DNA of 64,000 bases from the NCBI RefSeq assembly GCF_000710035.2, contig NZ_JMJJ01000004.1, forward strand, positions 1,054,001 to 1,118,000, given 5' to 3'. Below the pieces are notes generated by a model. The model had not been told where the DNA came from and did not search any database. It saw nothing but the letters and a program-made list of their open reading frames with translations. The DNA comes from Pantoea ananatis LMG 2665. GTDB lineage: Bacteria; Pseudomonadota; Gammaproteobacteria; Enterobacterales; Enterobacteriaceae. Both the position numbers and the translations under genes were made by a program. Numbering within the stretch: position 1 is the first letter of the stretch; every line of letters starts with the position of its first letter. Of this stretch, positions 36,899 to 37,508 are shown piece by piece.

Positions 36899-36993
36899 CA
36901 AAAAAGGATTTGGCATTACGCCAAATCCTTTTTTTATGCATTCGTTGCCCGGCGGGTAACCGGATGGCGAACGAGGTGCTCAGCACTCTCCAC
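36899..36993 (-). ncRNA. Predicted antisense small RNA (antitoxin of a type I pair)
   Basis: A leftward RNA of about 95 bases is predicted from the promoter at 37000-37028 to the terminator at 36900-36935. Its 5' end is complementary to the toxin mRNA leader: 36986-36993 pairs fully, position 36985 mismatches and 36978-36984 pairs. The DNA repeat itself runs 18 of 19 bases between 36978-36996 and 37174-37192. Start position and length are inferred. The layout matches IstR-1 and OrzO, which pair with and silence a hydrophobic-peptide mRNA. No reading frame of note is present. Confidence 0.6.
36900..36935. terminator. Bidirectional rho-independent terminator
   Basis: GGATTTGGC (36906-36914), ATTAC and GCCAAATCC (36920-36928) form the stem. 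It has A residues on the left (36900-36905) and T residues on the right (36929-36935), so it can stop both the rightward dehydrogenase transcript and a leftward RNA from the antisense promoter at 37000-37028. Confidence 0.9.
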
Positions 36994-36999
36994 AAATTG

Positions 37000-37028
37000 A
37001 TTGTAAAGAGGGCTGCGCAAGACTTCAA
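37000..37028 (-). promoter_or_regulatory. Sigma-70 promoter of the antisense RNA
   Basis: On the minus strand, TTGAAG (37023-37028), a spacer of exactly 17 bases and TACAAT (37000-37005) differ from consensus by two positions in the first box and one in the second. Start of transcription is expected near 36993. Confidence 0.65.
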
Positions 37029-37040
37029 GTTTGGCGAAAA

Positions 37041-37060
37041 TACTGTATATTTATACATGT
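37041..37060. promoter_or_regulatory. LexA (SOS) box
   Basis: TACTGTATATTTATACATGT agrees with the E. coli LexA consensus at 16 of 20 positions. The left half is perfect (CTGT) and the right half is ACAT where ACAG is expected. It lies between the antisense promoter and the peptide gene, overlapping where the rightward promoter must lie. It suggests DNA-damage induction of the peptide. Confidence 0.65.
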
Positions 37061-37116
37061 GTTGAGTGTTGGGTATCGCCGCAGGGTTAACTGATTGCTT
37101 CCAGGGGAGCTCGGTA

Positions 37117-37149
37117 ATGCAAATCCCGGCAGGTAACAGGTGGTGCTGA
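37117..37149 (+). other. Short upstream reading frame in the toxin leader
   Basis: ATG at 37117 opens a 10-codon frame, [10 protein letters not shown], ending TGA at 37149, with GGGGAG upstream. It lies before the antisense target (37174-37196), in the position of tisA in tisAB. Whether it is translated is unknown. Confidence 0.3.
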
Positions 37150-37272
37150 CCTGTGGCTTAAACCCCGAGTGCCGCTCAGCCCTCTCCACAAAGTTGTGCT
37201 CAGGCACCTGGCGGGTAACGGTAAGGCCCTGGTTGCTGAACAGCGCGCTCCTGTTGCGGGAGAAGGAAAGTG

Positions 37273-37362
37273 ATGGAACTGACGAAGCTGATTCTGGAAA
37301 TCATCCGGATCATCTTGCAGATCATCGTTGCCCTTATGCAACTGACCGGTCATGCAAATTAA
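37273..37362 (+). CDS. 29-residue hydrophobic peptide, candidate SOS-induced type I toxin
   Basis: The peptide [20 protein letters not shown] followed by LMQLTGHAN is 29 residues long, with one hydrophobic Ile/Leu helix from about 5 to 22 broken by a few charges. AAGGAAAGTG before ATG 37273 is a strong ribosome site, and a terminator follows 15 bases after the stop. TisB, ZorO and DinQ are of the same length and make-up (27-29 residues, membrane-inserting), but the sequence is not one I recognise. A LexA box and a divergent complementary RNA upstream give the regulatory signature of those toxins. It would act in the inner membrane to depolarise it. Confidence 0.75.
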
Positions 37363-37376
37363 CCGGAACTTTGACC

Positions 37377-37404
37377 AAGGCGGAGCTAACCACTCCGCCT
37401 TTTT
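37377..37404 (+). terminator. Terminator of the hydrophobic-peptide transcript
   Basis: AAGGCGGAG (37377-37385), loop CTAACCA and CTCCGCCTT (37393-37401) are followed by a T-run to 37404. It makes the peptide mRNA a discrete short transcript. Confidence 0.9.
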
Positions 37405-37508
37405 CGTTGTCAATTGCCTGTCATCTTTCCCGGCTACAGTGGCGCGGCAATCGGGTGCCTGAAAGGCACAACTTATCCAGACATCAGACCAGTTCCGGGA
37501 GCTTTTTC

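Follow-up and report, generated by a model that had tools for sequence, protein, structure and literature searches.

The 64,000-nucleotide (nt) stretch of contig NZ_JMJJ01000004.1 of Pantoea ananatis LMG 2665 analyzed here (the window) most probably carries a chromosomal type I toxin-antitoxin locus under SOS control, of the same kind as tisB/istR-1; it would encode a short hydrophobic peptide and a divergent small RNA (sRNA). We read it as a new peptide family within a known kind, namely the SOS-induced and standby-controlled type I toxin-antitoxin systems, as far as sequence comparison suggests. At the sequence level, this is supported by the elements of the locus, their genus-wide conservation, selection on the peptide, covariation of the antitoxin with its target, covariation within a leader hairpin, and a paired Shine-Dalgarno sequence, to which transcription, LexA repression, RNA processing, ribosome standby, and membrane toxicity may be added by analogy with the literature on TisB, DinQ, and DqlB.

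A hydrophobic peptide gene under purifying selection

An earlier note on this sequence had proposed a 29-residue peptide gene (37273-37362) with its own ribosome site and terminator. The open reading frame (ORF), the GGAG/AAGG site, and the terminator hairpin (37377-37401) are indeed there, but the start has to be moved, GTG at 37270 (30 residues) being the likelier one since none of the 31 distinct ORFs departs from it, since the orthologue L015 reads GTG-ATT without an ATG, and since plasmid relatives begin with GTG-ATA or GTG-GTA; ATG 37273 was rejected as the sole start. The ribosome site is likewise invariant across orthologues, and CTCC...GGAG is present in the relatives as well as in tisB, giving, as in tisB, a hairpin predicted to sequester the ribosome-binding site.

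The peptide profile matched 56 of the 62 Pantoea genomes (E<=0.01), a few of which have a plasmid-type copy in addition, and 4 of the 198 genomes of a wider-family sample, two of these being Pantoea, including the window's own genome. Detailed comparison was made on 45 distinct chromosomal loci and on ten plasmid relatives; among named relatives, P. allii and P. stewartii have the nearest loci. The earlier note had staked its proposal beforehand on conservation of the frame in relatives, and the frame is kept in these 56 genomes. The toxin ORF is under purifying selection, with a ratio of nonsynonymous to synonymous substitution rates (dN/dS) of ~0.24 over the 31 distinct ORFs and of 0.21 in codons 2 to 15, where synonymous change is abundant; a small hydrophobic peptide gene under coding selection, as expected of a type I toxin-antitoxin locus, is hence present. 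Codons 18 to 26 (ATC ATC GTT GCC CTT WTG CAA CTG ACC; 37321-37347 in the window) are almost invariant even at synonymous sites and contain a small GTTGC/GCAAC inverted repeat, of which tisB has one too; this freeze of synonymous sites points to an RNA-level constraint within the ORF. The suggested structure prediction bore out the expected helix, AlphaFold2 modeling the peptide as a single one (residues 2 to 29; mean predicted local distance difference test score of 91).

The peptide was matched by no Pfam family, scored 7.3 to 7.8 bits against the TisB model TIGR04459 (cut-off, 38), which leaves it outside that family, and, like two plasmid relatives, had no match at E<=10 to NF041472 (DinQ) or NF041473 (DqlB). 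At the nucleotide level, no Rfam family reached its gathering score on the locus, and blastn against E. coli genomes and phages gave no match to it; STnc380 was rejected at 27.7 bits (gathering score, 60), most of that score coming from the terminator stem. No description of this peptide was found in the open-licence literature.

A few loci depart from the common form. In Pantoea sp. GD03673 (L005), the toxin stop TAA is changed to TTA and the peptide is longer by nine residues, and two genomes show a second partial match covering the last 13 residues less than ~250 nt from the full toxin gene (G060:C4:259827-259865 and G061:C1:2046990-2047028), possibly a decayed tandem copy. The weak matches L024, L025, and L098-L100 were set aside as apparent chance or in-gene matches.

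A LexA box and a divergent antitoxin with a covarying target

The LexA box that the earlier note placed ahead of the peptide gene scored 20.9 bits, and the next best site 10.4, in a ranking within the 64-kb window by a matrix of 18 E. coli boxes supplied from general knowledge. It lies at the same place, about -227 from the start, in 45 of 45 chromosomal loci as CTG-N10-CAG or CAT, with both half-sites perfect in most of them; a LexA box over the toxin promoter, as in the standby architecture of TisB, is thus found throughout.

The divergent sRNA with 5' complementarity to the leader, proposed in the same note together with a direct repeat, is borne out as a prediction, its promoter and terminator being conserved. 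The promoter hexamers are kept, the middle of the -10 varying (TACAAT, TAGAAT, or TATGAT) with a leftward TANNNT retained in the relatives, and AAAGGATTTGGC...GCCAAATCC of the terminator is kept in those compared. The two repeat copies (36978-36996 and 37174-37192) are identical at 18 of 19 positions, and complementarity extends beyond them, the predicted antitoxin/leader duplex reaching -69.7 kcal/mol against -45.3 +/- 4.5 for 300 shuffles.

Across loci, the two copies change together. Four 7-nt cores occur (CTCTCCA, CTCCTCA, CTCATCA, and TTCCTCA), and those of antitoxin and target agree within each locus: all 44 loci matched automatically do so, and reading by eye showed the same for the 45th (L043). 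Random re-pairing gave a mean of 17.8 matches and a maximum of 30 in 10,000 shuffles, a contrast inflated by the relatedness of the sequences; at least three coordinated core changes were counted on the chromosome, plus separate plasmid pairing classes. In a matrix of predicted duplexes, an antitoxin pairs most strongly, or nearly so, with its cognate leader, and chromosomal and plasmid classes are clearly apart, some noncognate duplexes within the chromosomal class being as strong as cognate ones. An adjacent predicted sRNA gene whose complementarity to the toxin mRNA has been maintained in evolution, the other mark of a type I system, would therefore accompany the peptide gene.

A leader hairpin shared with tisB, dinQ, and dqlB

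Upstream of the antitoxin target, as in the standby architecture of TisB, the leader contains a 5' structure whose motif, C[AG]GGTGG[TA]GC[TC]G, lies 124 to 156 nt ahead of the start codon not only in the Pantoea and plasmid loci but also in tisB, dinQ, and dqlB. Among 25 distinct hairpins, including those of tisB and dqlB, 213 of 225 pair cells (95%) are standard, and sliding the 3' partner by 1 to 3 nt leaves 60 to 96. The changes are compensatory: A-U and G-C replace each other in the inner stem, and the outer one varies among several pair types. In tisB, compensatory mutations showed that stem 2 of the standby pseudoknot is needed for translation and toxicity (PMC7708055), and the outer stem would correspond to this stem 2 under our own mapping of the numbering onto the sequence. 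A C-A mismatch is kept in the equivalent of pseudoknot stem 1 both in the Pantoea chromosomal family and in the first plasmid class, and the inner CRG/CYG stem covaries everywhere; the comparison hints at an extended hairpin (outer plus inner CRG/CYG stem) as the tisB-type standby element.

The antitoxin loop ACC(A) is complementary to the leader loop UGGU, with an ACC core opposite UGGU in the 45 Pantoea loci, in IstR-1, and in AgrA/AgrB. In the plasmid relatives L065, L066, and L069, both loops are changed so as to match, with UGGA in the leader facing UCCA in the antitoxin; this was the sole such switch seen. A tentative idea, which we hold to be rather doubtful, is that antitoxins of this superfamily recognize their mRNA twice, by 5'-end antisense pairing and by a loop-loop contact between antitoxin hairpin and standby hairpin, so that the module, with nothing but its promoter and 5' pairing segment exchanged, could serve as an SOS device on chromosomes or as an addiction system on plasmids. 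If so, such an exchange would keep coresident copies from silencing each other. Part of the loop complementarity could also date from a duplication of the leader that gave rise to the antitoxin gene, an origin suggested by the collinearity of the repeats.

Plasmid relatives

Modules with the same order of elements were found by blastn and tblastn on plasmids from eight enterobacterial genera, namely Pantoea, Mixta, Erwinia, Serratia, Klebsiella, Citrobacter, Proteus (Rts1), and Providencia. The window peptide itself matched nothing by tblastn in plasmids and phages; the relatives surfaced only when the 3' half was compared as DNA or when a plasmid peptide served as the query. Their peptides, e.g., MITLGSILLILQILHVSLRIIVVIKQLTGRP, are 38 to 52% identical to that of the window in a common frame and share its QLTG motif (QLTR in Rts1); these modules, not TisB, are its closest relatives. 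Leader hairpin, peptide motif, and 3' end are all retained, and the toxin promoter is usually TATAAT-like. A conserved LexA box is lacking in all ten that were read in detail, the Serratia copy having a single isolated site of 13.7 bits. In each of these loci antitoxin and target match each other, although the sequences involved bear no relation to those of the chromosomal pair. Both kinds coexist in P. agglomerans HJS002, L043 on the chromosome and L031 on a plasmid. An assignment of these modules to DqlB was rejected, NF041473 giving no match with the two plasmid peptides compared.

Proteus Rts1 (L070), Citrobacter pT-OXA-181 (L067), and Klebsiella pHNLDL3-2 (L066) carry type I-like modules that are unannotated or misstarted, and a plasmid SOS inhibition gene adjoins the module in Rts1 and pT-OXA-181. 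L097, from another genus (genome G180), appears to be a complete relative that has a repeat pair of its own and lacks a LexA box, and L095 (genome G196) is a remnant with the 3' part of the toxin and without a leader.

Organization of the locus

From left to right, the locus consists of an inverted repeat, a leftward promoter, the LexA-like box, the leader, the 30-codon ORF, and a terminator (Table 1). The same pyrroloquinoline quinone (PQQ)-type dehydrogenase gene lies upstream of the toxin gene in 27 of the 29 named loci, which makes it a fixed chromosomal locus in Pantoea. As A/T tracts flank the leftmost repeat on both sides, this repeat probably also terminates the dehydrogenase transcript.

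Table 1. Features of the Pantoea ananatis locus, in window coordinates
Feature	Position	Strand	Details
Intergenic setting			PQQ-type dehydrogenase gene (ends 36882) upstream; hexapeptide acetyltransferase gene on far side
Antitoxin terminator, Rho-independent	36899..36938	-	15/15-bp inverted repeat 36900-36914/36920-36934; A/T tracts on both sides
Predicted antitoxin sRNA	36899..36994	-	~95 nt; 5' end inferred from promoter; order promoter-hairpin-terminator
Antitoxin hairpin	36948..36963	-	Loop GGUUACCCGCC; GGUUACCAGCC in most relatives, as in IstR-1
Antitoxin 5' pairing segment	36978..36996	-	Repeat copy 1
Antitoxin promoter	37000..37028	-	-35 TTGAAG, -10 TACAAT, spacing 17
LexA (SOS) box	37041..37060	+	TACTGTATATTTATACATGT; over predicted toxin promoter
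Predicted toxin mRNA	37064..37404	+	Leader ~205 nt; start inferred; -10-like TATACA 37052-37057; terminator
Leader hairpin	37129..37154	+	GCAGGT-aa-CAG-GUGGUG-CUG-ACCUGU; counterpart of tisB standby 5' structure
Antitoxin target in leader	37174..37192	+	Repeat copy 2
Shine-Dalgarno region	37248..37267	+	GGAG/AAGG; GGAG pairs with upstream CTCC in predicted fold
Toxin ORF	37270..37362	+	GTG start, TAA stop, 30 residues; 29 from ATG 37273
Toxin mRNA terminator	37377..37409	+	Hairpin 37377-37401; GGCGGAG...CTCCGCC conserved in relatives

Proposed model and alternative explanations

In an undamaged cell, LexA would cover the toxin promoter (37041-37060), and the divergent ~95-nt sRNA, made from its own promoter, would use its 5' end to base pair with 37174-37192 and the flanks of this segment in the leader, whose fold would hold the Shine-Dalgarno sequence in a hairpin. 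Translation would require ribosome standby beside the 37129-37154 hairpin and, since this hairpin sits just upstream of the antitoxin target, pairing of the antitoxin could block standby. DNA damage would remove LexA, toxin mRNA would then exceed the antitoxin, and the 30-residue single-helix hydrophobic peptide would be made, insert in the inner membrane, and slow or depolarize the cell. Several points weigh against this model: transcripts, LexA binding, pairing, and toxicity are all predicted, the LexA box of the window has CAT in place of CAG in one half-site, an imperfection seen in 11 of the 45 loci, the C terminus of the peptide (QLTGHAN) is unlike the basic tail of TisB, and the shuffling of the cores overstates their agreement, as said above.

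That the locus is a diverged tisB/istR-1 orthologue, not a separate family, seems rather unlikely to us. The common layout, the leader hairpin, the IstR-like antitoxin loop GGUUACCAGCC, a helix core that aligns with LKLIVAALQL of TisB, and the weak TIGR04459 match would fit such a descent, but this match amounts to 7 to 8 bits against a cut-off of 38, the nearest relatives of the peptide are plasmid modules, the chromosomal site is not the ivbL/emrD site of E. coli, and a separate, better TisB-like ORF (MRWIEIARVFLKLMVALLQLLEIIVNSFR; TIGR04459, 23.7 bits) exists in the same genome (G000:C11:354830-354898; L029, L101). The latter locus has a tisB-like ribosome-site region and an IstR-like terminator, without LexA box or leader hairpin, and looks like a decayed tisB/istR locus. 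Quite conceivable, albeit somewhat less likely than not, is the domestication of a plasmid addiction module that entered a Pantoea ancestor and exchanged a constitutive promoter for a LexA-controlled one, a claim on origin that is compatible with the mechanism proposed above. The features that the plasmid relatives share with the chromosomal locus, their usual TATAAT-like promoter without a conserved LexA box, and the co-occurrence of both copies in P. agglomerans HJS002 would agree with it; however, the transfer could just as well have run from chromosome to plasmid, and SOS control is also seen in tisB and dinQ.

The toxicity of this peptide family rests on analogy, and no paper on the peptide was found, which leaves some room for an SOS-induced small membrane peptide with a nontoxic role (signaling or modulation of membrane proteins), whose dose the sRNA would only fine-tune. 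We consider this improbable, because LexA, an antisense RNA, and a sequestered Shine-Dalgarno sequence together are the safeguards of proven toxin systems and because the homologous architecture is toxic in DqlB and TisB (PMC12365149, PMC7708055). Hardly credible at all is a chance ORF within a conserved regulatory RNA, the peptide remaining untranslated: the near-frozen synonymous sites of codons 18 to 26 do place part of the conservation at the RNA level, but the dN/dS values, notably over codons 2 to 15, the invariant ribosome site and start, and the frame held in common with plasmid copies at 38 to 52% identity all contradict it.

A toxin-antitoxin locus, if this is indeed what Pantoea carries, would give a plant-associated and opportunistic genus a genus-wide candidate DNA-damage-induced membrane peptide and a candidate cause of dormancy or persistence. 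Moreover, the profile libraries used miss type I-like loci on Rts1, pT-OXA-181 (IncT), and some Klebsiella plasmids.

Relation to known type I systems

The earlier note had likened the architecture to TisB/IstR-1, DinQ/AgrB, and ZorO/OrzO, and had supposed a distinct peptide family. The first two likenesses hold by sequence, and zorO/orzO of E. coli, in which the antitoxin is reported to pair far upstream of the ribosome-binding site, with leader structure (PMC7708055, PMC9860968), was set beside the Pantoea locus by description only. The family is distinct in that the Pfam, TisB, DinQ, and DqlB models do not recognize it, but it does not stand alone.

With tisB/istR-1 of E. coli (TIGR04459, PF13939), the locus has in common the LexA box, the divergent antitoxin, the leader hairpin with its GUGGUG loop, an antitoxin target just 3' of that hairpin, the Shine-Dalgarno hairpin, a helix of 29 to 30 residues, and an IstR-like antitoxin loop. 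It differs in a peptide far under the TisB cut-offs, a GTG start, a QLTGxAx C terminus, another pairing sequence, and a nonorthologous site, downstream of the PQQ-type dehydrogenase gene instead of at ivbL/emrD. LexA control, a divergent antitoxin, a leader hairpin, and a GTG start are also those of dinQ/agrB (E. coli; NF041472), whereas the peptide is unmatched by that model, the antitoxin is present as a single copy, and the pairing is different. DqlB/agrB (NF041473), found on pOXA-48 and other plasmids, is a proven type I addiction module on pOXA-48 (PMC12365149); it resembles the locus in leader hairpin, layout, short hydrophobic helix, and plasmid members without LexA control, yet NF041473 does not match the peptide, and the plasmid relatives (e.g., that of IncT Rts1) belong to a different peptide family. 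The Pantoea locus shares with TisB, DinQ, and DqlB the leader hairpin and part of the antitoxin hairpin, which makes it a sibling of these systems and not an isolated invention. One leader element with compensatory changes joins SOS type I loci (tisB and dinQ) to plasmid addiction modules (dqlB and the relatives described here), which makes the origin and rewiring of these systems testable.
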